Positions 4,117 to 41,653 of a DNA stretch of 48,511 bases are shown piece after piece (within the stretch, counting starts at the first letter, position 1; every line of letters starts with the position of its first letter). This DNA is from a virus. Below the pieces are notes generated by a model. It searched no databases. It was given only the letters and a program-made list of their open reading frames with translations, and was not told the DNA's origin. The translations under genes were made by a program, and so were the position numbers. The stretch covers positions 1 to 48,511 of IMG/VR virus record IMGVR_UViG_3300022752_000111; one strand, written 5' to 3'.

Positions 4117-4865
4117 TGGCATCGATCTCTTTTGCACATTTCGCTAGTACTAGTAAACAACTGGCCACCGAACAAATTATAAAACAGGTACGTAGTTTAT
4201 ACCCAGATACTTACTATTTTGTTGCCAGTGATGCAGTTGATGACCATACACAGTTAGCTAAAGATTATAACTTAGATTTTCATTTATTCAATAAAAAATT
4301 AGGTTATCCTGTTCAGCCCTACGGTTATCGTGCTTGGCAAATTAGTGAGTGGCTAAGGCGTTTACATATTGCTTGCGCTAACACTAATACTAGTCACATA
4401 ATAATGATGGAAGATGATGTTTGGGTAAAACAACATATAACAGTAAAGGATCATTGGGAAATAGCAGCACACGAACTAAATCCCGATGGCAAAGGCAATG
4501 CCATTGATCCTGGGTTAATTGAAGTAATTGAACTATTTGCCAATCGGCGTCCACTTACACATCAATACGCTTCTGGTGGTGGAAGCATTTTTCGTGTACA
4601 AACTTTTTTAGATAATTTTGAGCGCATTAATGCATTTTTCTTAGAACATACCAACAATATACAAGAACACATTTATCCTACAATAGGTTGGATAGATTGC
4701 TTTATGACCGTGTATTATATGCTTGCTGGCAAAGACTATACAATAAATTCACATCTGGCTGACACACACAACCATCGTGATGGATTTGATTATGATGCAT
4801 TTTTATCTAAGCTGCCTGAGCATATTGAGATAATTAATAATTATAAGAAATGGTATTGGGTCTAA
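4116..4865 (+). CDS. Putative glycosyltransferase with EDD motif, 249 aa
   Basis: The protein has a GT-A-like order: an N-terminal strand (ISFAHFAST), then a hydrophobic strand ending in E99-D100-D101 (IIMMEDDVW), which matches the DxD metal site of several GT families, then a GGGSIFR segment and a conserved-looking TIGWIDCFMTVYY. No membrane segment is present. The overall family is not recognised, so this is a fold-level call from the DxD context and operon position. It is separated by 1 nt from the HtrL-like gene downstream. Confidence 0.55.
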   Translation: MASISFAHFASTSKQLATEQIIKQVRSLYPDTYYFVASDAVDDHTQLAKDYNLDFHLFNKKLGYPVQPYGYRAWQISEWLRRLHIACANTNTSHIIMMEDDVWVKQHITVKDHWEIAAHELNPDGKGNAIDPGLIEVIELFANRRPLTHQYASGGGSIFRVQTFLDNFERINAFFLEHTNNIQEHIYPTIGWIDCFMTVYYMLAGKDYTINSHLADTHNHRDGFDYDAFLSKLPEHIEIINNYKKWYWV

Positions 4866-4866
4866 A

Positions 4867-5667
4867 ATGAACAATGACATCACAATCGTAACTGCTTTTT
4901 TTGACATAGGACGTGGCGATTGGACACCTGATCGTGGGTTTCCAAGCTACTTGCACAGAACCACAGACACATACTTTGAAAGGTTTAGCCATTTGGCTCA
5001 ACTTGATAATGAGATGTTTATCTTCACCAGCAGTGATATGATAGACCGTGTTGCTAGTCTACGAAAAGATAAAGAAACAACTATATTTGAATTTGACTTA
5101 TCAAGCGAAGCCATAGATTTACGAGAGCGTATTGAAATAATATACGCTACACCTGAATATATGCGAATGATAAATCCCAAGGAAAGAACTAACCCTGAAT
5201 ACTGGAATGCAGATTATGTTATAATTAATTTGTTCAAGAGTACATTTGCTTGTATGGCCAGTATCCAGGCTCGTAATGATATGCTTGCATGGTTAGACTT
5301 TGGGTATTGTAGAGGCCAAGACTCACTACACGGAGTAAAACATTGGCGCTATCCTTTTGATCCTAGTCTAATTCATTTGTTCAAGTTAAAAGATTATGTA
5401 CCTGGTACCACTATTCATGACATGATTGCAAATAATGATGTACATATTACTGGTCCATGTATCGTAGCCAGCAAAGCTAACTGGCGTCAATTAGAAATGT
5501 TAGTCATGGAAGGTGTGCGTGAACTTATTGCTAAGTTCTTAATTGATGATGATCAATTGTTTTTATTACTAGCCTATCTTACACGTCCGGAATTGTTTAA
5601 ATTACATCAAGTAAGTGCCGATAATTGGTTCACTGTGTTTCGAGATTTTAATGAAAATATATCTTAA
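4867..5667 (+). CDS. HtrL/YibB-like protein (putative glycosyltransferase), 266 aa
   Basis: The N-terminus (ITIVTAFFDIGRGDW) followed by a repeated 'N-x-MFIFTS' strand is characteristic of the HtrL_YibB family, which sits in LPS/O-antigen loci and is thought to be a glycosyltransferase. WLDFGYCRG near residue 140 would be the acidic donor site. Length is in the family range. The protein is probably cytoplasmic. The next gene starts 17 nt before this stop. The biochemical role of the family is poorly defined, so the substrate is unknown. Confidence 0.7.
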   Translation: MNNDITIVTAFFDIGRGDWTPDRGFPSYLHRTTDTYFERFSHLAQLDNEMFIFTSSDMIDRVASLRKDKETTIFEFDLSSEAIDLRERIEIIYATPEYMRMINPKERTNPEYWNADYVIINLFKSTFACMASIQARNDMLAWLDFGYCRGQDSLHGVKHWRYPFDPSLIHLFKLKDYVPGTTIHDMIANNDVHITGPCIVASKANWRQLEMLVMEGVRELIAKFLIDDDQLFLLLAYLTRPELFKLHQVSADNWFTVFRDFNENIS

Positions 5668-6394
5668 TTGTACTGCAAACTTGGGAGATTTTGTTCAAAG
5701 TCTTCCGGTATTATCTGGGTTATATAAAGAATACGGTCCCATAGATTTTTATATTAGACACGAAATGCGTAAGTTCTGCGGTCTCAAAGAATTTTTAATG
5801 TACCAGGATATTTTCAACAAAGTAGAGTTTGATGACGAAGTTCGTGAAGCTGTTGATTCCGTATACATCCTGAGTTCTTGGACTAGAGAAGATAAAAATG
5901 ACCCCAATCGTCCTATTGAAACTTGTAGGTATGAAAATTGGTTAAAAGATAATTATAAATTTCGTTTCGACGTTAATGACAGTTTTGAAATTAAATTTCC
6001 CGATGTTGATATAGAATTAAAAGACAATTACTATGTAGGCGATCGTTGGTATACCCCAGATATTGACGCACGTAGAGAATGCCATGTGCTGGCACATCTC
6101 GATAAATTTGAATTCATTGACTATAAGAATACGTTATTAACAAATTGCTATATCATCAAAAAAAGTTCTTTGCCTTTTATAACAAATTTTACCGGTATTG
6201 GTATGATTGCTGATTTACTTAACAAAGAAACCTATGTGGTTTGGCGTGCCGAAGATTGGAAACCTGAATTTAGAAACGGTAATGATATTAGTTGGGATAA
6301 TGGAAAAAATATAAACAAGATATTTGAAAAACATTTCTATTTAAATCGCCGAGCTAGATTAGTTCACTCCAATGACCTAGAGGATTTGTTGTGA
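5651..6394 (+). CDS. Putative GT-B (heptosyltransferase-like) protein, 247 aa
   Basis: I chose the ATG at 5651 rather than the in-frame codon at 5615, because it gives a clean Rossmann start (MKIYLNCTANLGDFVQSLP) typical of GT9/heptosyltransferase-like enzymes (strand, then GD and a helix). A weakly conserved second half contains NFTGIGMIADLL, in the position where GT9 enzymes have the donor-binding segment. No membrane segment. It is followed by a second GT9-like gene, so the two may act as a pair. Distant similarity only. Confidence 0.5.
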   Translation: MKIYLNCTANLGDFVQSLPVLSGLYKEYGPIDFYIRHEMRKFCGLKEFLMYQDIFNKVEFDDEVREAVDSVYILSSWTREDKNDPNRPIETCRYENWLKDNYKFRFDVNDSFEIKFPDVDIELKDNYYVGDRWYTPDIDARRECHVLAHLDKFEFIDYKNTLLTNCYIIKKSSLPFITNFTGIGMIADLLNKETYVVWRAEDWKPEFRNGNDISWDNGKNINKIFEKHFYLNRRARLVHSNDLEDLL

Positions 6395-7089
6395 TTTTTA
6401 ATATAAAGTTAGGTACCTTTGGTGGACCCATGCGTATGGGTGATATTATTGCCTGTGCCAATGTAGTCGAGCACTTCAGACAAACTGAAAATAACACAGA
6501 CATAAAATTCCATTTAGACTCGACTAGCATACAAAGCTCAACTCATGTACAAGAATTTTGTAAATGGATGTTAGACAATACTGACTATTACTCTGCCACA
6601 CCTGGAGAAGTAACATTACCATGGTCAAAAGTTAATTTATGGGATTACAGAGATATTTCAGGTGACTTGGTGAAGATACCAAATGCCATGACTCGGAGCA
6701 AAAAGGTTGTAGTAGTGCCATTGTTAGACGCTGATTACAATACATACCGTAACTGGCCGAATTCCGTGTTAGAAAAAATTCTACAAGATGTTGAAGTCGA
6801 CTATTTGAATTACGATTTAGTGGTAGCCGGAGCTAATCCTCAGGATCGGCCGGGCTGGAGATCAAGTAAAAAATTAACATATACATTACAAGAAATTATG
6901 ACAGCCGAAGTCTACATCGGTGGCGACACTGGGCTAAGTCATTTTACTGGTGCCCTAGTTCAGGGACCCGACCCTATATATTATACCAGCAGTCGTGGAC
7001 TTTTACACACAACGCCACTTTATTGGTACACCCATAAAAAAGGACAAATGCGTACTTATTGGTTAGACTTTGAGAACACAAAATGGTAA
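6391..7089 (+). CDS. GT9-like (GT-B) putative glycosyltransferase, 232 aa
   Basis: It starts with GTG at 6391, overlapping the previous stop by 4 nt. The segment GPMRMGDIIACANVV resembles the N-terminal GD-loop of heptosyltransferases. YIGGDTGLSHF near residue 176 matches the donor-sugar signature of GT9 (D-[ST]-G-x-x-H). It is shorter than cellular heptosyltransferases (about 320-350 aa), so it may be a minimal version. Substrate unknown. Together with the gene upstream it suggests transfer of heptose-like or deoxy sugars. Confidence 0.6.
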   Translation: MIFNIKLGTFGGPMRMGDIIACANVVEHFRQTENNTDIKFHLDSTSIQSSTHVQEFCKWMLDNTDYYSATPGEVTLPWSKVNLWDYRDISGDLVKIPNAMTRSKKVVVVPLLDADYNTYRNWPNSVLEKILQDVEVDYLNYDLVVAGANPQDRPGWRSSKKLTYTLQEIMTAEVYIGGDTGLSHFTGALVQGPDPIYYTSSRGLLHTTPLYWYTHKKGQMRTYWLDFENTKW

Positions 7090-7760
7090 AAAATTCTGCT
7101 ATTTTAATAACTGCGTACTGCGGTGGTAACGATCCTGTTTACTATACTACTGGTAACGAAGAGCAAAATGCAAAAAAACGTCATATGGCAAAAACACTTG
7201 CACGCCATCTGGGAAATTCGGATTATCATGTATGTATGAGTAGTCATAGTGCTTTAGATATGGACACACAACGAGCCTGTTCTAGTTTTATATACGATTC
7301 TGACAACAGCTGGCAAATATGCGGACTTCCCTTACGACCAAATCATGGTGTAGCCGAAATGACCGCTATAGTTAACGGGCTTATGATGTTAAAGATAAAG
7401 GGTTTCGATTGGGTTCTAAAATTGAATTATGACCAAACCCCAACATTAGACTACGATAATGTTATTAAAACATGCAGTCAGTTAGATGCTGACTTGGCCA
7501 CTTACGAAAATGCCACTGATTACGGAATGATGGCATTCTGGGGCAACATTGATTTTATAATTGACTCATTGCCCTTAGATAGTTTGCAAACGTGTGAAGG
7601 TGCAGTAGAGACTTGTTGGTATAATAAAATCGCGGATTCTCTCATGAAACCACGTGTGCATGGCTTTGCTAGTTATGAGCAGATGTTTGCAGTCCCTGAC
7701 GGGACATTACTGCATCATAGTTATGTGGGCAGCGCATTACATGAGTATAATTATCAATGA
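7083..7760 (+). CDS. Putative glycosyltransferase (GT-A-like), 225 aa
   Basis: The N-terminus (AILITAYCGG) and the strand FDWVLKLNYDQTP are laid out like a GT-A enzyme, with the acidic donor site read here as N-x-D rather than DxD. A later segment (YEQMFAVPDG) could form the acceptor side. No signal peptide or membrane helix. The assignment rests mostly on operon context and the alpha/beta pattern. Overlaps the neighbours by 7 nt upstream and 4 nt downstream. Confidence 0.5.
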   Translation: MVKNSAILITAYCGGNDPVYYTTGNEEQNAKKRHMAKTLARHLGNSDYHVCMSSHSALDMDTQRACSSFIYDSDNSWQICGLPLRPNHGVAEMTAIVNGLMMLKIKGFDWVLKLNYDQTPTLDYDNVIKTCSQLDADLATYENATDYGMMAFWGNIDFIIDSLPLDSLQTCEGAVETCWYNKIADSLMKPRVHGFASYEQMFAVPDGTLLHHSYVGSALHEYNYQ

Positions 7761-8473
7761 AAACTATAGCAATAAGCTGTGTTGACACTGCATATTATGA
7801 TTGTACACAGCGAGCTTTGACTAAAACTTTAGAAACGATGCGTGATCAAAATTGTACCAAAGTTTACTGGTTTTCCGACATCGCTTGTCCTTATGAATTA
7901 GATGTTCCAGTACAATGGATACCCATACCTAAAATTTCAAACCAAAACATTGAGACTTCTTATCCAATGATATATGGTCTTGTAACATTAAAGCTAATGC
8001 CAATAATTATACAAGAAGATTTCAATTTAACCATTCATGACGACGGATTCGCTGTGAATAGTCAAGCATGGACCGATGAGTTTTTAGAATATGATTATAT
8101 TGGTGCCTGTTGGGGAGAAGATGTCGGTAATGGGGGCTTTACATTACGTAGTAAAAAATTATATAATGCCTTACACAATATTAATGTCGAATATGATTGG
8201 CGAAGACTACCCAAGCAGTTGTTTGCACCTGAATTTGAGGGAATGGTTTGGTTACAAACAGCTCATTGCCAGGATCCAATAATTCCCGAAGACAATATAA
8301 TATGCAGAGTGTATAAGCAGCAGTTAGTAAGTGATTATGCAATAAAATTTGCACCAGCAGCAATTGCAGATAGATTTAGTATAGAAAATAAGATGTACTC
8401 ACCTTGGTTAGGCCGTAGCTTAGGATTCCACGGACGCCACGGTGTTGCCAAATATTACAATATAGAGTTATAA
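7757..8473 (+). CDS. DUF5672-like putative glycosyltransferase, 238 aa
   Basis: The sequence shows the pattern I associate with DUF5672: an HDDGF site (H94-D95-D96) after a hydrophobic strand, a YDYIGACW segment, GNGGFTLRS, a PEDNIIC segment and a C-terminal SLGFHG. These proteins occur next to glycosyltransferases and are thought to be GT-A enzymes. The ATG at 7757 overlaps the upstream stop. The donor and acceptor cannot be told from the sequence. Confidence 0.65.
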   Translation: MKTIAISCVDTAYYDCTQRALTKTLETMRDQNCTKVYWFSDIACPYELDVPVQWIPIPKISNQNIETSYPMIYGLVTLKLMPIIIQEDFNLTIHDDGFAVNSQAWTDEFLEYDYIGACWGEDVGNGGFTLRSKKLYNALHNINVEYDWRRLPKQLFAPEFEGMVWLQTAHCQDPIIPEDNIICRVYKQQLVSDYAIKFAPAAIADRFSIENKMYSPWLGRSLGFHGRHGVAKYYNIEL

Positions 8474-8474
8474 T

Positions 8475-9719
8475 ATGAAACTACCACCGTTTATTAAAAG
8501 TTATGACAATTTCACACCCGGTAAAGACACTGTGCTATACTCTGGTCCCTATTGGGACCAAAAAGAGATTACAGCAGCTATTCGTTCGTTAACTGAAGGT
8601 GCTTGGATTACAAGCGGACAAGAAGTAGACGCTTTTCAGTCTGAATTCGCAAAGATGTTTAATACTTCGTTTGCTCATATGGTCAATTCTGGCAGCTCGG
8701 CTAACCTTGTAATGGTTACAGCTCTTAAGAAGTACTTACAATGGGCAGATGGTGATGAAGTTATTGTTAGCCCGGTGGGTTTTCCCACTACTATTGCACC
8801 TCTCGTACAAAACAACCTTAAGCCAGTATTTGTCGACATTGAAATGCAGACTTTAAATTTTGATGTGGGATTAATAGAATCGGTAATAAATGAGCGCACT
8901 CGTGCAATTTTTGTGAGTCCGGTACTAGGTAATCCGCCCGATATGGATGAATTGCAACATTTGGCCAATAAACATGGTTTATATTTAATTGGCGACAATT
9001 GTGACACACTCGGAACTTTGTGGAATTCACGTCCCATCACTGACTATTATTATAGTTGGAGTTGTAGTTTTTATCCTGCACATCATATAAGCACCGGTGA
9101 AGGTGGCATGGTCGCTAGCAACGATGAGGAACTAATTAAAATTGTAAGAAGCATGAGTTGGTGGGGAAGAGACTGTTATTGTGTTGGGGCAAATAACTTA
9201 CTTGCTTGCGGTACTTGCGGTAAAAGATTTGACCAATGGTTGGATAATTATGATGGTATAATTGATCACAAATATGTTTTTACCAACATAGGGTACAATC
9301 TTAAACCTCTAGATTTACAAGGTGCTATTGGTCGCGAGCAATTATTGAAAATGCCTGAGATTGACCATAAGCGCAGGGAAAACAAAAAGATTATTACTGA
9401 ACATTTAAAAGCTATTTCAGATGTAAGAGTGGCCGAGCAACTGTTCCAAGCAGATCCAAGTTGGTTTGGTGTTCCCATCATCTGCAACAGTCAAGAATTA
9501 AAAGAAATGTTAGTAGCGCATTTTGAAGATAACAAAGTTCAAACTCGTAGTTACTTTGCAGGTAATATTTTATTACATACAGGATACAGGCACTTAGGGA
9601 ATTACAAGGATTATCCAAATGCAAACTTGGCTCTTAGTCATGTATTTTTTATAGGCTGTACACCTTTATACACACCAGCAGTGCTAGACTATATTAAAGA
9701 GGTTATCAATAAATGGTAA
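8475..9719 (+). CDS. rfbH: RfbH-like CDP-4-dehydro-6-deoxyglucose 3-dehydrase (PMP and [2Fe-2S]), 414 aa
   Basis: A DegT/DnrJ/EryC1-fold protein in which the lysine that normally holds PLP is His203 (YPAHHISTGEGG). This is the hallmark of the E1/RfbH 3-dehydrases, which use PMP and a [2Fe-2S] cluster to remove the C3 hydroxyl of CDP-4-keto-6-deoxyglucose. The cluster cysteines are present: Cys176 (GDNCD), Cys234 exactly 57 residues later, Cys236, and a final Cys before GKRF (Cys248, with an extra Cys245). The family spacing between the last two is 7; here a 4-residue insertion makes it 11. It overlaps by 7 nt the SDR gene. The pathway product would be a 3,6-dideoxyhexose (abequose, paratose, tyvelose type). 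Confidence 0.85.
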   Translation: MKLPPFIKSYDNFTPGKDTVLYSGPYWDQKEITAAIRSLTEGAWITSGQEVDAFQSEFAKMFNTSFAHMVNSGSSANLVMVTALKKYLQWADGDEVIVSPVGFPTTIAPLVQNNLKPVFVDIEMQTLNFDVGLIESVINERTRAIFVSPVLGNPPDMDELQHLANKHGLYLIGDNCDTLGTLWNSRPITDYYYSWSCSFYPAHHISTGEGGMVASNDEELIKIVRSMSWWGRDCYCVGANNLLACGTCGKRFDQWLDNYDGIIDHKYVFTNIGYNLKPLDLQGAIGREQLLKMPEIDHKRRENKKIITEHLKAISDVRVAEQLFQADPSWFGVPIICNSQELKEMLVAHFEDNKVQTRSYFAGNILLHTGYRHLGNYKDYPNANLALSHVFFIGCTPLYTPAVLDYIKEVINKW

Positions 9720-10531
9720 ACTTATTTGGCCATGGATTTGTTGGTGGCGAATTTGCTAAACGATATCCTTGTGTTATTAATTCGCGTGACGATTACGTAC
9801 CTCAGAGCAATAATATTCTGTATTTTATAAGCACTATACACAATTATCATGTTTTCACAGATCCTCATTTAGATATTAACACTAATCTAAATTTACTAAT
9901 TACAGTGTTAGAAAACGCTAAAAATCGTTTTGGATGTGATTTTACTTTTAATTTTATTAGTTCTTGGTTTGTTTATGGTAACACCGAAATGCCCGCAAGA
10001 GAAAGCAATTATTGTGATCCAAGAGGTTTTTACTCGATAACAAAGAAGGCTGCTGAAGATTTGCTTATTTCCTACTGTACCACATTTAACATTAAGTATC
10101 GTATCTTGCGGTTAGCTAATGTGTTGGGTTCTAGTGACACCAAAGTAAGTGCTCAAAAAAATGCTTTGCAATATCTTATCAACCGGTTAAAAAGACACGA
10201 GCCTATTGAACTTTATGATGATGGTGATTTTTATAGAGACTACATTGATGTTGATGATGCTGTAACTGCTATAAACTTAGTGTTATCAAATGGTCAATTG
10301 AATTATACTTATAATATAAGTAATGGACAGCCCATAAAGTTTAAAAATTTAATTGATTATGTAGTTAGTAAGACTAATAGTAAGAGCCAAATAAGTGCTA
10401 TAGAGCAGCGAGATTTTCATAAAATAGTACAAGTCAAGACCATGTTCCTAGATAATGAAAGACTACTTTTGCTAGGCTATAGTCCGAACTACACTATAAA
10501 CCAAACTTTGGACAAACTCATTAATGAATAA
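9713..10531 (+). CDS. NAD(P)-dependent SDR epimerase/reductase, possible CDP-3,6-dideoxyhexose reductase, 272 aa
   Basis: An extended SDR with the nucleotide loop G6-x-G8-x-x-G11 ([11 protein letters not shown]), a Ser-containing strand FISSWFVYG and the catalytic Y107-x-x-x-K111 (YSITK). Its position directly after rfbH parallels O-antigen loci where RfbJ or RfbS reduces the RfbH product to CDP-abequose or CDP-paratose. It could equally be a general sugar epimerase/dehydratase. It overlaps both neighbours (7 and 8 nt). No separate E3-type reductase, needed by RfbH, is seen in the window, so the host would have to supply electrons. Confidence 0.75.
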
Positions 10532-11672
10532 ATTTAGATTCCATATATTAGGACTGCCGCACACAGTTACATCAAAAGAATATAATGCCTGCGCCTATAC
10601 TCAAAAGGTATGGAAATTCGGCAAGATGATGAAAGAGCGAGGGCATGAAATAATTCATTATGGACATGAGGATTCCGATCTTATCTGTGACGAACATGTT
10701 ACAGTTAGTACCAACCGTGATTTAGAAATTGCCTACGGTGATTATGACTGGCGCCGTAATTTTTATAAGTTTGATGTAAGTGATTATGCTTATACAACCT
10801 TTTATGCTAATGCTATCCGTGAAGTTGGACTACGCAAACAACCACTTGATTTTATTTTACCTTTCTGGGGCTCGGGTGTTCGTCCTATTTGTGATGCACA
10901 CCCAGAATTAATCACAGTAGAACCCGGCATCGGATACGCAGGTGGGCATTGGGCTCGTTGGAAAATATTTGAAAGCTATGCCATTTACCATGCTTTCTGC
11001 GGTATGCAAAATGTAGGCACATGCAGACAAGACTGGTACGAAACAGTTATCCCTAATTACTTTGATCCTGAAGATTTCACCTATGCTCCTGAGACTAAAG
11101 AAGATTATTTTCTTTATTTGGGCAGAGTTTATGAAGGCAAAGGTGTGCATATAGCTATTCAAGTTGCCGAAGCTACTGGAATTAGATTAAAGATAGCTGG
11201 ACAAGGAAGTTTAGAATCCATGGGCTATCCAAATACACCCAGTAACATTGAGTTTATCGGGTATGCTGATATTGAAACTCGTAGGCAGTTAATGAGTCGT
11301 GCTCGTGGTGCTTTTGTACCTAGTATGTATATCGAGCCTTTTGGCGGAGTACAAATTGAAATGCTAATGTCTGGCACACCTACTATAAGCACAGACTGGG
11401 GTAGTTTTGTAGAAAACAATGTACACGGTGTTACCGGATATCGTTGTCGTACATTTGATCAATTCTGTTGGGCAGCGGAAAATATAGATAAAATTGATCC
11501 AGCTGCATGCCGCTCTTGGGCAGTGGATAACTTTAGCTTAGATGTAGTAGCTCCACAATACGAGGAATTCTTCCAAAATGTCTTAGATGTTTACACAGGT
11601 AAAGGTTGGTATCAAAGACATCAGCGTAACAATCTTGATTTCAAAACTAAATTTTACCCAAAATCAAATTGA
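10524..11672 (+). CDS. GT4-family glycosyltransferase (GT-B), 382 aa
   Basis: The C-terminal donor domain is clear: [11 protein letters not shown], then IKLKIAGQG-like strand-loop (LKIAGQGS) and the E-x7-E motif E271-E279 (EPFGGVQIE) followed by MSGTPTIST. These are the classic retaining GT4 donor-binding elements. The N-terminal half is an acceptor domain of GT-B type. Length is typical for GT4. It is the last enzyme of the operon, and the next promoter starts at its stop codon. Confidence 0.85.
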
Positions 11673-31819: not shown

Positions 31820-34009
31820 ATGGCAGTTGAACAAGTCAGCCAGATTCAGATCCGTAGCGGACTGTTACAAGATTTAGGTAGGTTAGCCAAAGGCGAATTT
31901 GGTTGGGCCATTGATGAGTTACGCCTATACATAGGCAACGGAACTATTTTAGAAGGTGCTCCCGAAGAAGGCAACACTGAGATTATTACTCGTCCCACTT
32001 TACTTAAAATATTAGGTGGGGGAGATGACAGTGGTATGTTGCCTAACTTCTTGTATCGTTTTAAAGGCCTAGAAGGTGGTTATGAAGTTCAAACCGGCCC
32101 AGATTCCATTACGCCTATAAGACGCAGAATACAAGAAAAGTTAGACGACAACGTAAATGTAAAAGACTTTGGCGCGAAAGGGGATGGCACTGCCGATGAC
32201 TTAGATGCCATACAACGTGCCATAGATCAAATTTATGATAGATTTAGTTTGTATACCTCGGAAGAAACTAGACGAATAATTAATTTTCATCCAGGAATAT
32301 ATAATATCTATGGTGAGTTGCGTATCCCACCTTACTGCACATTACGTGGAGCCGGGTTAGATAGCGTAATTATTCGGCAAATGAGTTTTGCTGCGCCAGG
32401 AATATTTAAAACTACTAATAGCCGCGGCGCTTATGATTCTACTATGCTTGAGGGCGGGCTAGCACCAGGCCCAATTGAATTTCAAAATATAACTTTTGAA
32501 ATGAAAAGCTCGGCTAACAAATATGTTGGTCTTATTGATTCTGCCAGCAACGTTAACTTTTATAAGTGTAGGTTTATTGGTCCATATGTAAAACCATTGT
32601 ATCAAGATTATGGTGCCTGTCTAAAGATTACTTCACGGTACTATGACGCTAAGAATTACTATTTCAGTGATTGTGACTTTGTTGGTATGGCCAATGGAAT
32701 AGTTATTGAAGGCACTAACCGTATACAAGATTTTGTCATCGATGGATGTTTGTTTAAAGACCTATTCCAAGGTATCGCAGTAAGTAATCCTGCCACAGTT
32801 AGTCACATGGGCTTGAGAATCAGCAGTAATTACTTCGATGATATTAAAGAACGTGGGGTATGGATCAAGAACAATATTGAAGGTGTTACTACTACCACTA
32901 ATACCTTTATGAATGTTGGTTATAATTATGAAGCTAATATTTTAGTTGAACGTAGTAATATTGCCCCAGTTACAAGTTATATTACTTTTACAGGAAACAG
33001 CAGTTATAGCTTTGGAGACATGTTCCTTACTCGCTATGACACAGATTTTGATATTCCTGCTGTACAGCATAATGCCATTGATGTAATTAGTTTTGATGTT
33101 GCCAATTCTATGCGACTTGGTGCTACTTACCAGACTATTGGACGAAGCGTAATAATCTTTAAACTAAGTGAGAATTATATCCCATTGCCCGGGCGTTATA
33201 TGGGCGGTGTTATTGATTATAATATTGAAAGACCCAATGCTTATAGATCGGGACGTATACAGTTTGTAGTGGATCCAGTAACACACGATGTTCATTTTAG
33301 AGACAATTATATTCAAAACAGTCCTATGAATATAACTATAAGTATGGTCCACACTATGTTCACGCCATATTACAATGGCTATAAACCAGTAATAGTTATT
33401 AAATCAGATATTGATGATGGGCTAGCGGCTATCTTTACATACGATGTTAAGAGTCAAGACTTTAAGAACTTTCTTGATCCCGCCGTGGTCTTACCAAGAT
33501 TCGGTGGTAATGTTACTACAACTACTACCAGCACCAGTACAACAACAAGCACCACGAGCACTAGCACATCAACCACTAGTACTAGCACATCAACCACATC
33601 AACTAGTACCACTACTTCTACGTCGACTACATCCACTACATCAACTAGCACCAGTACCACCACGCTATCATGGACATTTGGGCGTACTTGGGCAGTAACA
33701 AGGTATCAAAGTACTAACTACCTGCTGAACGGCAGTAGCAATTTAGATTTATATTTAATCAAACGTTATAAGTACGACTTTAATGTTGACGCTATTGGAT
33801 TTCCCTTTGCAATAAAAACTGCGTTAACATCAGGCAATGTCGACTTATTTTCTGAAGGAGTCAAAAATAATGTTATCGATTACGGAACGCTTGAATTTAT
33901 TGTGCCACCCTCAGCACCACCAGTGCTATATTATGTGTGTATAAATGACCCTGATATGTATGGCAACATTTACATATTAGAGGGAACAACCACTACAACA
34001 TTGCCTTAA
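31820..34009 (+). CDS. Tail-spike/fibre with pectate-lyase-type beta-helix and Thr/Ser tract, 729 aa
   Basis: The N-terminal ~60 residues are fibre-attachment-like. From ~110 there is a pectate-lyase-3-type start (NVNVKDFGAKGDGTADDLDA) followed by repeated beta-helix rungs to ~545, typical of tail spikes that bind or cut surface glycans. Residues 566-615 are 50 consecutive Thr/Ser. The C-terminal ~115 residues form another domain ending in a second Thr-run. The acidic residues of a cutting site cannot be placed with certainty. Expressed late. Confidence 0.8.
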   Translation: MAVEQVSQIQIRSGLLQDLGRLAKGEFGWAIDELRLYIGNGTILEGAPEEGNTEIITRPTLLKILGGGDDSGMLPNFLYRFKGLEGGYEVQTGPDSITPIRRRIQEKLDDNVNVKDFGAKGDGTADDLDAIQRAIDQIYDRFSLYTSEETRRIINFHPGIYNIYGELRIPPYCTLRGAGLDSVIIRQMSFAAPGIFKTTNSRGAYDSTMLEGGLAPGPIEFQNITFEMKSSANKYVGLIDSASNVNFYKCRFIGPYVKPLYQDYGACLKITSRYYDAKNYYFSDCDFVGMANGIVIEGTNRIQDFVIDGCLFKDLFQGIAVSNPATVSHMGLRISSNYFDDIKERGVWIKNNIEGVTTTTNTFMNVGYNYEANILVERSNIAPVTSYITFTGNSSYSFGDMFLTRYDTDFDIPAVQHNAIDVISFDVANSMRLGATYQTIGRSVIIFKLSENYIPLPGRYMGGVIDYNIERPNAYRSGRIQFVVDPVTHDVHFRDNYIQNSPMNITISMVHTMFTPYYNGYKPVIVIKSDIDDGLAAIFTYDVKSQDFKNFLDPAVVLPRFGGNVTTTTTSTSTTTSTTSTSTSTTSTSTSTTSTSTTTSTSTTSTTSTSTSTTTLSWTFGRTWAVTRYQSTNYLLNGSSNLDLYLIKRYKYDFNVDAIGFPFAIKTALTSGNVDLFSEGVKNNVIDYGTLEFIVPPSAPPVLYYVCINDPDMYGNIYILEGTTTTTLP
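33515..33664 (+). repeat. Thr/Ser-coding tract in the tail-spike gene
   Basis: 150 nt encode exactly 50 residues, all Thr or Ser, using varied codons (ACA, ACT, ACC, AGC, AGT, TCA). The DNA shows short imperfect repeats such as AGCACATCAACC. Confidence 0.85.
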
Positions 34010-34019
34010 GTAGCATTTT

Positions 34020-34469
34020 ATGTGGAATTTAACCCCTGACGAAAGGCTTCGTCATTGGCGTCAATTTCGCCAAGAAATCGGCACCAAAGACCTAGAAGTA
34101 GCTTTAAAAATGACATCTAATTTATGGAGTTACGCTCCATATGTAACTCATTATTTGCACCCGGATGATGTAGCAGATTGGCCAGATCCATGGACTCTGG
34201 TACACGAAAATTACTACTGCAACCTTGCAAAATGCCTAGGAATGCTGTATACTCTATGCTTATCCAACCATTATAAAACTAGCATAGATCGATTAGAAAT
34301 AAGAGTATATAAAAGTAGTTCGGACGTTCACAATGTACTTTGGGTAAACAACGGAAAATATATACTTAATTTGGAATTTAATACGATAGTAAATAAAAGT
34401 TCTATTACAGAAGATTATCGTATTATTCACCGAATTCCCGTGTCCGAATTAAAAAGCGATTTACAATAA
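34020..34469 (+). CDS. Conserved-type phage protein, 149 aa
   Basis: ATG at 34020 shortly after the spike gene. The product is Trp- and Tyr-rich (ERLRHWRQFRQEIG, HPDDVADWPDPW) and probably alpha/beta, with no membrane segment. It precedes nrdA by 17 nt, so it may belong to the nrd operon. Function unknown. Confidence 0.6.
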   Translation: MWNLTPDERLRHWRQFRQEIGTKDLEVALKMTSNLWSYAPYVTHYLHPDDVADWPDPWTLVHENYYCNLAKCLGMLYTLCLSNHYKTSIDRLEIRVYKSSSDVHNVLWVNNGKYILNLEFNTIVNKSSITEDYRIIHRIPVSELKSDLQ

Positions 34470-34486
34470 GAAGGATTCAAAACGCA

Positions 34487-36820
34487 ATGACCCAACAAAT
34501 ACATGTGATTAAACGCAATGGAAAACGTGTACCACTAGATATAAGCAAGATTCAGAGACAAGTAAGTTTAGCCTGTAGGGGCATAGATGGAGTAAGCCCT
34601 AGCATGGTCGAAATTAAAGCTCAGTTGGAATTTCATGATGGAATGGCAACTAGCACTATTGATGCACTATTGTTACAGGCCATGGTTGGCCTAATTGATG
34701 AAACCGAAAACGAAGAAATCAACAACGTTAATTATCAATATGTAGCAGGACGACAACGTCTTAGTATGCTACGCAAAGAAGTTTATGGCGAATACGATCC
34801 TCCTCGACTTTACACGATAGTAAAGAAGAACGTAGATGCCGGAATGTATACCCCGGAATTGCTAGAGTGGTATACCCAAGATGAATGGAATATTATTGAT
34901 CTGTTTATTGATCATCACAAAGATGAAAACTATACATACGCAGCTATTGCACAGCTCTGCGAAAAATACCTAGTACAAAATCGTGCCACAGGGCAAGTAT
35001 ACGAAACTCCACAGGTTCGATATGCTGTGGCTGCTGCCACAGCCTTTCACAATGAACCCAAGGATCGAAGGCTTAAATTAGTAAAGGAATATTATGAGTG
35101 CGCTTCAGATGGTCATTTCACTCTTGCCACTCCTGTGCTCGCTGGTTTGGGGACTACAACTAAACAATTCAGTAGTTGCGTTCTTATCAGTAGTGATGAT
35201 ACTCTTGATAGTATATTTGCAGCTGGCGAAATGATGGCCAAATATGCCAGTAAACGAGCCGGAATTGGCTTGGAAATTGGCCGTATTCGACCCTTAGGTG
35301 CACCAATTCGCAATGGTGAGATCAAACACACGGGTCTAGTACCATTTATGAAAAAATGGTTCAGTGATCTACGCAGTTGTAGCCAAGGTGGTATTCGTAA
35401 TGCCAGTTGTACAGTAACATTCCCTATCTGGCACGCACAGTTTGAAGACCTTATTGTACTAAAGAATAACCAAGGCACAGAAGAAACCCGTGTGCGTCAG
35501 ATGGACTATAGCGTAGTGATCAATGCCATGTTCTGGCGCAGGTTTAAACGCGGCGAAAATATTACCTTGTTTGATCCACACGAAGTACCCGACCTATACG
35601 AAGCATTCTATAGGGACACAGCAGAGTTTGAACGACTATACGTAAAGTATGAACAAGATCCGACAAAAAAGACCAAGGTGCTACCAGCAGATGAAATATT
35701 CAAAAACGGAATTCTCAAAGAGCGAACCGACACCGGTCGCATATATCTGGTCAACATAGACAATGTCATTGCTCAAGGGCCATTTGACACGCAGCTGGAT
35801 CCCATATATCAATCAAATCTCTGTCAGGAAATCTTACTGCCTTCGCGACCCTTTCAGAGACTAGATGATTCAGATGGTAGAGTGGCCCTGTGTACTTTGG
35901 GAAGTATAAATTGGGGCAGTTTTCGTACGCCACAAGACATGCGTAAGTGCTGTAGAATCCTGGTACGCAGTCTCAGTAACTTACTTAACTATCAAGACTT
36001 CCTAAGTGTACAAAGCGAATTGGCTAACAAGGACTTTGAACCACTTGGGGTTGGCATCACTAATCTTGCCTACTGGCATGCTCGTAAGAGTCTCAAGTAT
36101 GGCGAACCAACAGCTTTGGCGGAAGTCAAGCGTTGGATGGAACATCAAGCCTATTACCTAACCGAGATGAGTGTAGAATTGGCTGAGCAGCGCGGTGCTT
36201 GCAGTAAGTCGGCGCAGACCTACTACGGTAGGGGAGTTTTCCCCTGGGAGCGTCGAGCCGTAGGAGTTAATGAGCTAACGGATTTCACCCCAAGTCTTGA
36301 CTGGGAACCTTTACGTGCTAGATTGCTAAAATCTGGCATCCGGAATGCCACACTAATGGCCGTAGCACCTGTTGAGTCTAGTTCGGTGGTATTAAATTCA
36401 ACTAATGGAATTGAAATGCCCATGGAGTTGATTTCAGTTAAAGAATCAAAAGCGGGTTCTTTCGTTCAAGTTGTTCCTGAATATCGCCGCCTAAAACAGC
36501 GTTACCAACTAATGTGGGATCAACGTGATTGCCAAGATTATCTTAAAACTGCCGCAGTGTTAGCGGCCTATGTAGATCAAAGTTTGAGTACAAACACTTT
36601 TTATAACCCTGCTTATTATCCTGATAACAAGGTGCCAGGCACAGTCATAGCCGGTAACCTTATGCGAGCACACCGTTGGGGCTTGAAAACAATTTATTAT
36701 AGTTTAATTAACAAGGTCGGAGCAAAAGCAATGTTAGCAAATACACCCGCACAGACAACAACTGTAAGTAGTCAAGAAGACTTTGAAGATCAAGAAAATT
36801 GTGAGTCCTGTGTACTATGA
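34487..36820 (+). CDS. nrdA: Ribonucleoside-diphosphate reductase alpha subunit, class I, 777 aa
   Basis: The N-terminal ATP-cone (IHVIKRNGKRVPLDISKI) is followed by the catalytic barrel. Active-site residues are present: FSSCVL (first redox Cys), NLCQE (thiyl Cys between Asn and Glu), ALCTLGSIN (second redox Cys), TIYYS (radical-transfer Tyr pair) and a C-terminal CESC (shuttle Cys pair). It reduces ribonucleotides to deoxyribonucleotides for phage DNA synthesis and works with NrdB, whose ATG overlaps its stop by 4 nt. Confidence 0.96.
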   Translation: MTQQIHVIKRNGKRVPLDISKIQRQVSLACRGIDGVSPSMVEIKAQLEFHDGMATSTIDALLLQAMVGLIDETENEEINNVNYQYVAGRQRLSMLRKEVYGEYDPPRLYTIVKKNVDAGMYTPELLEWYTQDEWNIIDLFIDHHKDENYTYAAIAQLCEKYLVQNRATGQVYETPQVRYAVAAATAFHNEPKDRRLKLVKEYYECASDGHFTLATPVLAGLGTTTKQFSSCVLISSDDTLDSIFAAGEMMAKYASKRAGIGLEIGRIRPLGAPIRNGEIKHTGLVPFMKKWFSDLRSCSQGGIRNASCTVTFPIWHAQFEDLIVLKNNQGTEETRVRQMDYSVVINAMFWRRFKRGENITLFDPHEVPDLYEAFYRDTAEFERLYVKYEQDPTKKTKVLPADEIFKNGILKERTDTGRIYLVNIDNVIAQGPFDTQLDPIYQSNLCQEILLPSRPFQRLDDSDGRVALCTLGSINWGSFRTPQDMRKCCRILVRSLSNLLNYQDFLSVQSELANKDFEPLGVGITNLAYWHARKSLKYGEPTALAEVKRWMEHQAYYLTEMSVELAEQRGACSKSAQTYYGRGVFPWERRAVGVNELTDFTPSLDWEPLRARLLKSGIRNATLMAVAPVESSSVVLNSTNGIEMPMELISVKESKAGSFVQVVPEYRRLKQRYQLMWDQRDCQDYLKTAAVLAAYVDQSLSTNTFYNPAYYPDNKVPGTVIAGNLMRAHRWGLKTIYYSLINKVGAKAMLANTPAQTTTVSSQEDFEDQENCESCVL

Positions 36821-37920
36821 GCCACGCACAATACAATCTAGGGCACCAGACCAATTACCTAAACAGGGCTATGTTTTTAGATCCTGAGGGTCCAGTAACA
36901 GTACAACGCTTTGAAGAAGTCAAGTACCCTAAACTTCAAAAATTCGAAGAGACTGCTCGAGGATTCTTTTGGGTACCAGAAGAAATTACACTGACCAAAG
37001 ACAAGATTGATTTCAAGGAAGCATCAGAAGCAGTTAGGCACATCTTTACTAGCAACTTGCTTAGGCAAACTGCCTTAGACAGTATTCAGGGTCGTGCGCC
37101 AGCACAGATCTTTAATCCTGTTGCCAGTGTGCCGGAGTTAGAATCCTTGGTTAATAACTGGAGTTTCTTTGAAACTAATATTCATAGTAAGAGCTACAGT
37201 CATATCATACGCAATATCTATGGTGTACCCAAGGATGTGTTTAATACAATCCACAACACTCAAGAAATTGTAGACATGGCCGCCAGTGTTGGCCGATACT
37301 ATGACAGACTACACGAAATTAATTGTTTAAAAGAATTAGGCAAACCCGACGTCAGTGAGGAAATGCACATTAGGGCAATATGGATGGCCTTAAATGCAAG
37401 TTATGCGTTAGAAGCATTACGCTTTATGGTATCTTTTGCCACTAGCCTTGCTATGGTAGAGAATCGTATCTTCATTGGCAACGGTAATATCATCAGCCTT
37501 ATCCTACAAGACGAATTGTTACATGCTGAGTGGACTGCGTATATTATCAATCAGGTAGTAAAAGATGATCCTCGTTTCGCTCAGGCAGCTATGGAAACTA
37601 AGTCCGAAGTATATCAAATGTACATGGATGTTATAGCTGAAGAAAAGGCCTGGGCTGACTACTTGTTTAAGAAAGGTGTAGTCATTGGCCTAAACAGCCA
37701 GATATTACAAGATTTTGTCGACTACACAGCTTTTGTAAGACTCAAAGAAATTGGTATTAAATATACAGAAGAGCACCCAAAGTCGACTCCGATTCCCTGG
37801 TTCAACAAGCATGTAAACATTAACAAAAAACAAACTGCACTACAGGAATCAGAATCGACTAACTATGTAATTGGTGCAATGAGTGATGTAGTTCTTAAAG
37901 AGGAACTACCAGATCTATGA
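36817..37920 (+). CDS. nrdB: Ribonucleoside-diphosphate reductase beta subunit, class I, 367 aa
   Basis: Carboxylate ligands of the diiron cluster are recognisable: Asp in ALDSIQG, Glu in ALEALRF, and Glu/His in DELLH, with a conserved Tyr in HSKSYSHI. The Glu/His pair of the second helix reads E-T-N-I-H, one residue longer than the E-x-x-H of E. coli. The C-terminal tail that docks to NrdA is present. The stop is followed by a small gene and glutaredoxin. Confidence 0.93.
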   Translation: MSHAQYNLGHQTNYLNRAMFLDPEGPVTVQRFEEVKYPKLQKFEETARGFFWVPEEITLTKDKIDFKEASEAVRHIFTSNLLRQTALDSIQGRAPAQIFNPVASVPELESLVNNWSFFETNIHSKSYSHIIRNIYGVPKDVFNTIHNTQEIVDMAASVGRYYDRLHEINCLKELGKPDVSEEMHIRAIWMALNASYALEALRFMVSFATSLAMVENRIFIGNGNIISLILQDELLHAEWTAYIINQVVKDDPRFAQAAMETKSEVYQMYMDVIAEEKAWADYLFKKGVVIGLNSQILQDFVDYTAFVRLKEIGIKYTEEHPKSTPIPWFNKHVNINKKQTALQESESTNYVIGAMSDVVLKEELPDL

Positions 37921-37929
37921 GGAATAGCA

Positions 37930-38097
37930 ATGGCAAGAATTGAAGAAACAATATTTGTAGTTAAATTAAGTCAGTTAGTAAAAGACCGAGGCGACACAAC
38001 ATCTAAATCTACGTATGATGATTTACCGGCAACGATTGAACAGGTTGTTCAAGAACTAGTTGCCGGTGACATTGTAGTTGAAGTGGAGCGAGCCTAA
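37930..38097 (+). CDS. Small phage protein between nrdB and glutaredoxin, 55 aa
   Basis: ATG at 37930 with a GAGGAA RBS; stop TAA at 38095-38097 overlaps the next ATG (TAATG). The product is acidic and beta/helix-like (begins MARIEETIFVVKLSQLVKD). No motif. Context suggests translational coupling between nrd genes. Confidence 0.65.
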   Translation: MARIEETIFVVKLSQLVKDRGDTTSKSTYDDLPATIEQVVQELVAGDIVVEVERA

Positions 38098-38357
38098 TGT
38101 TAACTATATACAGCAAGGACCATTGTCCATTTTGTGATCGTGCTAAGAATTTATTAGCCTTGAAAGGCATAGAATTTACCGAAGTACGTATTGATTTAGA
38201 CTCGGAAGCAAAACAATTTATTGTCAGTGAGGGTCATCGTACAGTGCCGCAAGTTTATAAAGATGGTAAATTATTTGTGTCGGGTGGTTATAATGGACTA
38301 GCTCGATTAGATGAATCAGTTTTCAAACAGTTAAAGGAAAATCAAAATGTTAATTGA
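38097..38357 (+). CDS. Glutaredoxin, 86 aa
   Basis: The thiol pair C10-P-F-C13 (DHCPFCDRA) and the downstream RTVPQVYKDGK (cis-Pro loop) with GGYN are the full glutaredoxin signature. It would reduce NrdA (and other proteins) in the phage-infected cell. The gene follows nrdB directly, as is common. Confidence 0.92.
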   Translation: MLTIYSKDHCPFCDRAKNLLALKGIEFTEVRIDLDSEAKQFIVSEGHRTVPQVYKDGKLFVSGGYNGLARLDESVFKQLKENQNVN

Positions 38358-38679
38358 ACGTTCACGTTTTACAGTAGATGATATTATTAGTCTAAAACTT
38401 ATTAATGGAGATGAGATCGTAGGTCGCTTAGTTAAAGAAGAAAATGGCGTTTACGAAATTAATAAACCCTGTATTGTGCTGACCACACCCGAAGGAATTG
38501 GCGTGCTACAGGCCATGTTTGGTTTAGACCCAGACAGGGATAATCTTAACTATCGTGAGCAACACATTATTACTAGTTGCCTAACCCACGATAAATTGCG
38601 AGACCATTATGTACGTGTATTAATTGACGGTGAAGATTCTGAGAGTTTGATTACAACAACTAGTATCACATCAAACTAA
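38347..38679 (+). CDS. Conserved phage protein, possible Sm-like fold, 110 aa
   Basis: Starts MLIERSRFTVDDI and contains a strand pattern (ISLKLINGDEIVGRLVKE) like an Sm/Hfq-type beta-barrel start, with a NKPCIVLTTPEG segment. The assignment is weak. It overlaps the glutaredoxin stop by 11 nt and abuts the PAAR gene (TAATG). Confidence 0.6.
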   Translation: MLIERSRFTVDDIISLKLINGDEIVGRLVKEENGVYEINKPCIVLTTPEGIGVLQAMFGLDPDRDNLNYREQHIITSCLTHDKLRDHYVRVLIDGEDSESLITTTSITSN

Positions 38680-38969
38680 TGCCAGGCGCAGCTAGACAAG
38701 CACAAGATATGGCCGGACTGGGAGGGGTGATTACCCTTCCAGTGGCTTGTTCAGTGTTAGTCAATGGCAAGCCAGCAGCCCATCAGGGGTCAATCTGTGT
38801 ACCCCATGCACCATTTGGTAAAAAGCCAAATGTTCATAACATTCCACATCCAATTATTAAAGGCTCGTGTTCGGTTACTGTAGAAGGTAAACCTATGGCA
38901 CGTGCTGGTGATATGGCCACATGTGGTTGTACAATTAAAATAGGTAGTTGCGACGTAATGGTGGGCTGA
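38679..38969 (+). CDS. PAAR-type baseplate spike tip protein, 96 aa
   Basis: Pro/Ala/Ala/Arg-type beta repeats and conserved His/Cys (VPHAPFGKKP, HNIPHP, MATCGC) match the PAAR family, which caps the central spike of contractile tails and holds a metal. In T4 the equivalent is gp5.4. Its stop lies in the following terminator. Confidence 0.85.
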   Translation: MPGAARQAQDMAGLGGVITLPVACSVLVNGKPAAHQGSICVPHAPFGKKPNVHNIPHPIIKGSCSVTVEGKPMARAGDMATCGCTIKIGSCDVMVG

Positions 38970-38985
38970 TAACCCACCTTTTTTT
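38960..38985 (+). terminator. Rho-independent terminator overlapping the PAAR stop codon
   Basis: GGTGGG-CTGATAA-CCCACC followed by seven T. The TGA stop is in the loop. Confidence 0.85.
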
Positions 38986-38987
38986 AC

Positions 38988-38995
38988 GATAAATA
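38988..38995 (+). promoter_or_regulatory. Candidate late promoter (GATAAATA), leaderless start
   Basis: GATAAATA ends six nt (TCTATT) before the ATG at 39002, placing the transcript start next to the initiation codon. No RBS is seen. It directly follows a terminator. Confidence 0.55.
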
Positions 38996-39001
38996 TCTAT
39001 T

Positions 39002-41653
39002 ATGTCTTGTAGTGTCCTAAGCGTAGTTAGCAGTATTGCCAGCGCCGGCCTTTTAGGTGGGGGTGGTCTTGTTCCTGGATTAGATGGTTTTGATCTAGGA
39101 GGATTCGATGTAGGGTCATTAGGCGAATTAGGTATTAACACAGACCTACTTGATAATCTATCCGAATTTGATTTAGGATCCATGGATGATGTGCTAGGTG
39201 GCCTAGGAGATACTTTTGGTGACCTATCTATCGAAGCATTTGATATGTGTGGTGATCTAGTAGGTGATGTTTTAGGAGATTTACCTGATGGATTATCTGG
39301 TTTAATAGACACAGACATATTCAGTGACTTTGCATTAGAGGGTCTTGATTTCGCTGAATCTGGTAGTTTGTTTGATAGTATAAGTGGCCAAGTATCAGGT
39401 CTGCTAGAAAATGGCGTGCCAGGATTCACTGAAATAATTAATGGTGCTAAAGCATTTGCTGAACAAAGTGCCAGCGCATTAGCTAGCATACAGAATGCTG
39501 CTAATTTTCAAATTGGCGGTCAAAATTTTAATGCTATAAGCATATTCGACCAAGTCACCGGTGGTGCTTTGTCACGGACTTTTGATCCAATAAGAAACAT
39601 AACAAATTTAGCTTCAGGTGCGGTTGGCGCAGCCAGTGACCTTTTAGGAACAGTGCAGTCGAGTATTAATGGACTTCAGTCACAATTTACCTCCTTTACT
39701 GATGACATTGCACAATGGGGTACTATGTATAATGTAACTCAATTAGATAAAGCATTTGAAGTACCTACATTCGTACAAAATCTAGTTGACCAAGGGGTTC
39801 CGGGCCTTAGTAAAATACTGGAACAGTCAGGAATTAGTGCCTATAATGTTCTGAGCCAAAGCCCTGAAACATTGTTAAATGCAATATCTTCAGTGCCTAA
39901 AAATATTGTAGCAAGTATAGCAGATAAGGTAGGGTTTACTCGGCCTTTAGAAAACTTAGCCGATGCACTTATTCCGGCAACAGTATTAAGTGCCGGTGCA
40001 ATAGCATTAGTAAAAGATTTTAAAGGTGTATCTAATCGACTAACCAGTGTAGGATCAACCAATGTCCAATCATTTACTCAACTTGGTAATGAGCTAGGTA
40101 AAATTAAATTTCCAGAGAGTAGCGTATTATTAGGCATAGAACGTAACACCACTGGATTGAAAGACGTACTGTCAGCTAACATAGCAGGTAGACAAACTAT
40201 AACTGGCACAGGCGTAGGTACATTCAATAATCCCACTATGGACGATATGCTGGGAGCCTTCACTGGATCTTACTATACACCTAGACTTATCGGTATGTTA
40301 TCGGCCCAGAAGCGATTGATAGACACACCAGAAGGGCAAGCACTCAAATCAGCTATTCAAACAGCAGTAAATAATGCTCGAGCTAATCTTAACACTGATG
40401 CCGCTGACGCTGCGGCAATAAGATCGGCATTAAATGCTTTATTAGCAAGATCAGACAGTCAAACCAGTGAAGATTTTGCATTATTAGAGCGTTTTCAAAA
40501 TGATTTAGTTACTAAATTAGCAACAGAAAAACGTAATCTTAAAGCAGCGAGAATTGAATCAAATGTTGTGGGCTCACTGTCATCTGTCATGGGTTTTGTT
40601 AGTAGTCTTGAAAATGCATACGATGATGATTTTAATATTGGATATGCAGAGTGGGTCGATCAAGCAGCAGGCAATGATCAATTCGGTGATGCTATTAGAT
40701 TAGCAATGGTGGAAGGAAGCAACAAAAGAACGTTACAAAATATTGGTGCAACTTTTAGAACTACTAGTGTATTTGATTATGCCGATCAAGTTGCTGCTAA
40801 GAGAGCAGCAGAGCTAGCTAAATGCTGCCCACCTTATAGTGAACTCGGTGTCTATCCCGAGGCAGGATCTTTGTTGTCAACTTACTGTGAAAACTTTAAT
40901 TTGTATGGTATTTATGCTGATGGCAATGGTATGAGCTATTATACGGTTATAGAAAACAATAGCCTTGTCTGCGGTTTTACAACTACAACCACCAGCACTA
41001 CAACTACTAGTACGAGTACCACTAGCACTACATCTACTACCACTAGCACTTCGTCTACAACTAGCAGCACTACGTCAACCTCAACTAGCACAACATCTAC
41101 AACCACGTTGCCACCTTCCACTTCAACTACTACATTGTCTGGTTCTACAACATCTACATCGACCACAACAGAAGGACCAACAACCACTACTACATTAGCA
41201 CCAGGACAAACAACTACAACATCGACATCTACAACATCTACATCGACATCTACAACCTCTACATCTACAACCTCTACATCTACAACATCTACAACCTCGA
41301 CGTCTACAACCTCTACAACTACTACCACAGGGGCACCAACAACTACAACTACTACAACCACGACAGCGGCACCTCCGGCGCCCACCATTGATACATTCAA
41401 CTATGAAATCACAAATGTAAATGCGAATACGTTTCATGTAAAATTAACTTGGACCACAACAGGTGCAGATCAAGTATCAATTGAAATATATGAAAATGGT
41501 AGTTTATACGACAGTTATACTGGGCTATCGGCAGATAACCCAACAACAGGGTTGACTATACCGAGTTTAAGTGCGGCAAACACGTATGAAGCTAAATTAA
41601 TAGCAATTAGAAATAGTCCGTACGCAGAAACTACCTCAAGTGTTTACTTCTAA
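39002..41653 (+). CDS. Large virion protein with mucin-like Thr/Ser region and Ig/FN3-like end, 883 aa
   Basis: The N-terminus is Gly/Asp/Leu-rich (GLDGFDLGGFDVGSLG) followed by several long helical and beta regions. Residues ~660-788 are nearly pure Thr/Ser with Pro/Gly/Glu interruptions (LPPS, EGP, LAPGQ, GAP). The last ~90 residues form a single beta-sandwich (FHVKLTWTTTGADQVSIEI), like an Ig/FN3 domain. The layout (body, linker, adhesin) suggests a tail or baseplate adhesin. Its neighbour is the PAAR tip and it has a late-type promoter. Exact family not recognised. Confidence 0.7.
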   Translation: MSCSVLSVVSSIASAGLLGGGGLVPGLDGFDLGGFDVGSLGELGINTDLLDNLSEFDLGSMDDVLGGLGDTFGDLSIEAFDMCGDLVGDVLGDLPDGLSGLIDTDIFSDFALEGLDFAESGSLFDSISGQVSGLLENGVPGFTEIINGAKAFAEQSASALASIQNAANFQIGGQNFNAISIFDQVTGGALSRTFDPIRNITNLASGAVGAASDLLGTVQSSINGLQSQFTSFTDDIAQWGTMYNVTQLDKAFEVPTFVQNLVDQGVPGLSKILEQSGISAYNVLSQSPETLLNAISSVPKNIVASIADKVGFTRPLENLADALIPATVLSAGAIALVKDFKGVSNRLTSVGSTNVQSFTQLGNELGKIKFPESSVLLGIERNTTGLKDVLSANIAGRQTITGTGVGTFNNPTMDDMLGAFTGSYYTPRLIGMLSAQKRLIDTPEGQALKSAIQTAVNNARANLNTDAADAAAIRSALNALLARSDSQTSEDFALLERFQNDLVTKLATEKRNLKAARIESNVVGSLSSVMGFVSSLENAYDDDFNIGYAEWVDQAAGNDQFGDAIRLAMVEGSNKRTLQNIGATFRTTSVFDYADQVAAKRAAELAKCCPPYSELGVYPEAGSLLSTYCENFNLYGIYADGNGMSYYTVIENNSLVCGFTTTTTSTTTTSTSTTSTTSTTTSTSSTTSSTTSTSTSTTSTTTLPPSTSTTTLSGSTTSTSTTTEGPTTTTTLAPGQTTTTSTSTTSTSTSTTSTSTTSTSTTSTTSTSTTSTTTTTGAPTTTTTTTTTAAPPAPTIDTFNYEITNVNANTFHVKLTWTTTGADQVSIEIYENGSLYDSYTGLSADNPTTGLTIPSLSAANTYEAKLIAIRNSPYAETTSSVYF
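40979..41365 (+). repeat. Thr/Ser-coding repeat region in the large virion protein
   Basis: 387 nt (129 residues) of Thr/Ser with short interruptions. Between 41221 and 41330 the DNA has near-perfect repeats built on ACATCTACA-type units. It could expand or contract by slippage. Confidence 0.85.

Follow-up and report, generated by a model that had tools for sequence, protein, structure and literature searches.

Thr/Ser tracts in an uncultured T4-like phage as probable linkers between tail proteins and exchangeable C-terminal domains

Low-complexity linkers join the domains of modular secreted enzymes and adhesins, as in the PT/TS linkers of bacterial cellulases, and serine-rich repeat glycoproteins of the GspB/Fap1 type have dedicated glycosyltransferase (GT) loci. 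We found no description of threonine-rich phage linkers in the open-licence literature. Several targets of phage glycosyltransferases have been described, DNA and host serotype among them (PMC12619734), and glycans have been observed on the C-termini of capsid and tail-tube proteins in mycobacteriophages such as Che8, by the account of Freeman 2023 given in PMC12619734 and PMC11256854.

Here we analysed a 48.5 kb virus record at its full length of 48,511 nucleotides (the window), from an uncultured phage that is T4-like by gene content (NrdA/NrdB, primase, DnaB-like helicase, ligase and PAAR). Two of its genes encode long Thr/Ser tracts, and we think it probable that these are intrinsically disordered linkers that tether add-on, exchangeable C-terminal domains to otherwise complete tail proteins. 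Like the cellulase-type linkers, the tracts are Thr/Ser-rich, predicted to be disordered and variable in length, and they connect a distal domain to a core that is catalytic or serves for anchoring; unlike them, they sit in phage tail proteins, the tract of the spike is Pro-free, and the domains beyond the tract are gained or lost. The presence of a long hydroxyl-residue tract and sugar genes in one genome recalls the GspB/Fap1 type, whereas the window tracts are Thr-dominated and have a phage virion context, and among the window proteins scanned we found no cell-wall anchor at either C-terminus and no accessory Sec/Asp genes. With Che8, as that phage is portrayed in the citing papers, the window shares the possession of its own glycosyltransferases and of candidate acceptor segments in virion proteins; it differs in that its tracts are internal, its sugar cluster is distant from the tract genes, and it is known from sequence alone.

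The first tract lies in a tail spike gene with the following parts.

31820..34009, + strand: tail spike gene, 729 aa, holding tract 1 (PHROG tail spike families and phrog_677; Pfam PF12708, E=1e-15; Foldseek matches to phage tailspikes)
31844..31945, + strand: N-terminal Major tropism determinant N-like segment, a possible virion anchor (PF18454, E=0.0015, below the curated cut-off)
32153..32827, + strand: right-handed beta-helix, pectate-lyase-like core of the spike (PF12708 at residues 112-336; AlphaFold2 pLDDT mostly 70-86)
33515..33664, + strand: tract 1, probable disordered linker of 50 consecutive Thr/Ser (sequence; pLDDT 22-29; absent in orthologues L021/L022)
33665..33982, + strand: add-on C-terminal domain of ~105 residues, possibly cupredoxin-like (tblastn to cyanophages, E down to 3e-12; alignment; profile match, E=0.07)
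33983..34006, + strand: C-terminal GTTTTTLP end of the spike (aligns with the position where a second linker begins in L020 and L018)

The right-handed beta-helix core that characterizes pectate-lyase-like tail spikes was recovered by PF12708, by the structural model and by Foldseek. Tract 1 corresponds to spike residues 566-615 and consists of 33 T and 17 S. Outside the tracts, the Thr/Ser frequency is 0.13 in the spike and 0.17 in the second tract-bearing protein, so a pure run of 50 residues is far beyond chance. All four ACN codons are used, together with AGY and TCN, and this mixture shows that the protein rather than the DNA is what is kept. Tandem repeats in the tracts are weak and local only, showing that short duplications contribute to them. 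None of the 17 serines in the 50 residues of tract 1 is adjacent to another (p=2e-4), a pattern that a plain linker does not require and that short duplications could yield.

The second tract is encoded by the neighbour of the PAAR gene.

38679..38969, + strand: PAAR protein gene (PF05488, E=1.3e-14), adjacent to the 883-aa gene, with synteny in L003-L007
39002..41653, + strand: 883-aa protein gene, holding tract 2 (open reading frame; orthologues in L003-L007 by phmmer)
39002..40972, + strand: conserved N-terminal body of the 883-aa protein (orthologue L006 stops at the end of this body)
40979..41368, + strand: tract 2, about 130 residues, about 84% Thr/Ser (sequence; pLDDT 25-30)
41384..41650, + strand: C-terminal FN3-like beta-sandwich of the 883-aa protein (Pfam fn3, E=0.0055, below the cut-off; model pLDDT about 80; Foldseek FN3 matches)

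Direct homology searches among annotated phages matched the 883-aa protein to nothing in PHROGs, Pfam or the phage collection. The order PAAR gene, 883-aa gene, wall hydrolase gene is kept in relatives, the hydrolase being present where the contig extends far enough, and this conserved synteny with the PAAR gene suggests that the 883-aa protein is a virion protein, probably at the tail tip. Within tract 2, pure Thr/Ser runs of 43 residues (40979-41107) and 40 residues are separated by breaks of L, P, G, E, A and Q. The sequence-only reading that preceded this analysis had reported 50 consecutive Thr/Ser residues in the spike, which is exact, and a Thr/Ser region of ~129 residues with Pro/Gly/Glu breaks in the other protein, which agrees with the extent of tract 2. 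It had also taken both products for virion proteins; this is well founded for the spike, from its PHROG and Pfam matches, beta-helix model and Foldseek matches, and for the 883-aa protein it is drawn from PAAR synteny.

We compared both proteins with their orthologues in related contigs, which are IMG/VR records (L-numbered). Two spike orthologues with 44% identity (L021/L022) stop exactly where the window tract starts. Others continue through tract and domain and then differ: L003 has nothing further, the window spike adds TTTTTLP, L020 ends in an added Thr/Ser tail of ~27 residues, and L018 carries a second linker plus one more domain. A similar picture was seen for the 883-aa protein, as the L006 orthologue terminates just before the tract, and the C-terminal sequences that follow it in the window (FN3-like), L003 and L005 (an orthologue cut by the contig end) are mutually different. 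The tract is absent together with the distal domain in L021/L022 and L006, and it lies between separable domains. That orthologues end at the tract boundary, and that the domains downstream are exchangeable, suggests that the tracts are joints between a conserved body and add-on ends, which bears out the spacer role that had been offered as one possibility from the sequence. Consistent with this, AlphaFold2 predicted no fold for either tract (pLDDT 22-30, from shallow alignments). Thr/Ser stretches of this kind are common in environmental phages, with at least 120 stretches matching our DNA pattern, and the tract was internal to the protein in 82/90 loci of pattern-matched viral contigs with closed-ended frames, with a median of 224 residues after it. 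At the very C-terminus, where the tract lies in L138 and a few other contigs, nothing is left to tether, which counts against a linker.

In our proposed model, the linkers would tether distal domains to the beta-helix spike and to the PAAR-adjacent protein, probably at the tail tip. The orthologue comparisons show that tract and domain are gained or lost at a sharp boundary, that the domains beyond it vary among relatives, and that more linker-domain units can be added. Such a tether may give the distal domain the range to contact or scan the host surface, and may leave the folded core undisturbed when domains are gained or swapped. Sugars on the tract hydroxyls would be compatible with this model, though the evidence does not need them. 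The tracts would then mark sites at which tail proteins acquire or exchange their distal domains, and phages could alter host recognition by this route.

Repeated architectures of this type were also seen elsewhere. The open reading frame at 3-1610 of L020, upstream of a primase gene, has a beads-on-a-string arrangement in which poly-Thr and Thr/Ser linkers connect domains that resemble each other. L104 (3-4511) has an open frame of 1503 residues with several Thr/Ser tracts of up to 358 residues and repeated domains between them, and six GT domains are encoded in that contig.

The comparison of the window spike with that of L018 separates the fate of the tract DNA from that of its residues. 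The two proteins are 79% identical overall, and both tracts are 50 residues long and contain only Thr and Ser. Upstream of the tract, DNA identity between the two genes is about 71%, and the identity of orthologous tract DNA by best alignment, 0.58-0.63, equals that of a null of randomly recoded Thr/Ser. Two Thr/Ser-only tracts of 50 residues whose DNA similarity has been erased indicate that the chemistry is kept. In an alignment that is not unique within the tracts, 41 codons differ, of which 32 are synonymous, 9 exchange T and S, and none changes to another residue; random single changes would give 55% other residues, and the probability of 0/41 is (0.447)^41, or ~5e-15. The tract DNA turns over, but selection restricts the residues to Thr or Ser. 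These observations bear on whether the tracts are functionless junk, expanded by slippage of repeats. The weak local tandem repeats and the fast turnover of tract DNA fit such an origin, but the absence of any loss of Thr/Ser among the 41 differing codons, the shared length of 50 residues in the window and L018, and the position of the tracts at domain boundaries in both proteins speak against it, and we regard it as highly improbable. The codon-class test between the window and L018 rejected a neutral-repeat origin.

Another explanation is that the tract DNA itself serves as a shared recombination patch through which C-terminal domains are exchanged between genes and between phages. The downstream domains do vary among the orthologues of the 883-aa protein, and the tract DNAs of the spike and 883-aa genes are weakly alike (65%). 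However, the identity of 0.58-0.63, close to the recoded null, is too low for efficient homologous exchange, and we consider this explanation unlikely. A recombination-patch role for the DNA was unsupported when tract identity was tested against that null.

If the linker were neutral and flexible, Ala, Asn, Gly or Pro would be allowed in it. These residues are absent from the spike tracts of both the window and L018, which counts against a plain tether and means that Thr/Ser have some property of importance in themselves; this could be solubility, extended conformation, protease resistance or the acceptor hydroxyls.

The domain beyond tract 1 is homologous to a C-terminal domain of about 100 residues in the tail-fibre proteins of cyanophages (Kyanoviridae) (tblastn, best E 3e-12). 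In those proteins we found no Thr/Ser tract within the fetched loci, and whole-record pattern counts were too low for a tract of window length except in P-SSM2, whose listed pattern matches fall in collagen-like repeats. The alignment of the spike domain with its cyanophage relatives (L008-L017) shows an HPF ... YYQCxxHxxMxG pattern resembling the ligands of type I copper sites. Its profile matches are weak (copper nitrite reductase, E=0.07; Pfam Copper-bind, E=0.13). The H..C..H..M residues are kept in most of the cyanophage relatives, whereas the window copy and its near relatives lack both ligand-like histidines in the alignment, the window having a non-His residue at each position (FPF; VCINDPDM). 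By sequence comparison, the domain is possibly cupredoxin-like with two of the four ligand-like residues lost; AlphaFold2 gave no model of it (pLDDT about 30 or below), so this assignment is drawn from alignment only.

We then considered whether the tracts accept O-glycans in the manner of mucins, with the phage's own sugar genes modifying them for shielding or receptor mimicry, as the sequence-only reading had proposed, or to stiffen the stalk. The acceptor and linker roles are not mutually exclusive. The density of Thr/Ser is mucin-like in both proteins, reaching 100% over 50 residues in the spike and about 84% over a 134-residue region in the other, and the window encodes both a GT2 and a GT1 in the following cluster.

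2046..11672, + strand: sugar gene cluster (GT2, methyltransferase, HtrL_YibB, DUF5672, DegT aminotransferase, epimerase, GT1 and unassigned genes)

What had been described as a dense glycosyltransferase operon is indeed a cluster, of about 13 sugar-related or unassigned genes, but only two are confident GTs, and it lies 20 kb from the spike with replication genes in between. Among the window proteins that were scanned, none was recognisable as a polypeptide O-glycosyltransferase or an oligosaccharyltransferase. The nearest relatives of the window GT1, 69-72% identical, are single genes in the tail operons of cyanophages without tracts. Both this and the distance of the cluster weigh against modification of the tracts. 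That these relatives sit alone in cyanophage tail operons also fits a cluster that is unrelated to the tracts and modifies host surface glycans or phage DNA; against this stands the weak but repeated association of long Thr/Ser tracts with GT clusters described below, and we give such an unrelated role an even chance.

To see how far tracts and sugar genes occur together, as the sequence-only reading had suggested checking, we sampled contigs from among the pattern matches listed and searched them for the Pfam families GT2 and GT1, noting that contigs can be fragments. GT2 or GT1 was present in 23/50 tract contigs and 10/44 random contigs (p=0.03; length-adjusted z=1.97), but also in 18/50 contigs with collagen-like tracts (p=0.42 against tract contigs), so the GT excess is not specific to Thr/Ser tracts. 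Neither family was found in the other 27/50 tract contigs, of which some are 114-118 kb long and one bears seven tracts. In 15 of the 19 cases with a GT2, gene and tract were no more than 5 kb apart (p=3e-4 against a rotation null); the corresponding figure for collagen-like tracts was 6/11 (11 of the 13 collagen contigs with GT2 compared), suggesting that part of this proximity is a tail-gene neighbourhood effect. These random and collagen-like controls indicate that sugar genes near such tracts are weak evidence on their own. Other features of the sample favour modification. Longer tracts tend, weakly, to come with more GTs (Spearman 0.34, p=0.018); at least three GT domains were found in 6/49 tract contigs and 0/50 collagen contigs (p=0.012); and, in a post hoc comparison, GTs accompanied C-terminal tracts in 5/5 contigs against 18/44 for the others (p=0.018). 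Because of the length correlation the glycosylation idea is not refuted, and phage-encoded glycosylation has a precedent in the mycobacteriophage capsid and tail-tube C-termini (Freeman 2023, as cited in PMC12619734 and PMC11256854). Glycosylation of these tracts in the virion is possible, but that they serve as acceptors for the phage's own cluster seems to us doubtful.

The clearest candidates for such a system lie outside the window. In the 5260-9545 region of L138, a gene next to that of the major head protein (phrog_371, E=1e-27) encodes a protein with a C-terminal Thr/Ser tail of 93 residues, and a GT cluster follows directly. A linker role is impossible for this tract, since it is C-terminal; by analogy with the C-terminal glycans of mycobacteriophages, as outlined in PMC12619734, it is plausible that the tail is a glycan acceptor or brush, a candidate for capsid glycosylation. 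A minority of tract contigs, L138 among them, are good candidates for real virion glycosylation, and we tentatively suggest, while holding it to be rather unlikely, that environmental tailed phages glycosylate pure Thr/Ser tracts with their own sugar clusters and so produce bristle-coated spikes or capsids. As a simple DNA pattern finds the tracts, it yields a list of contigs in which phage-encoded protein glycosylation can be tested outside the mycobacteriophages. We also observed a single GT2-like gene within 5 kb of collagen-like Gly-Pro repeats in several phage contigs (G106-G149), a possible parallel system.
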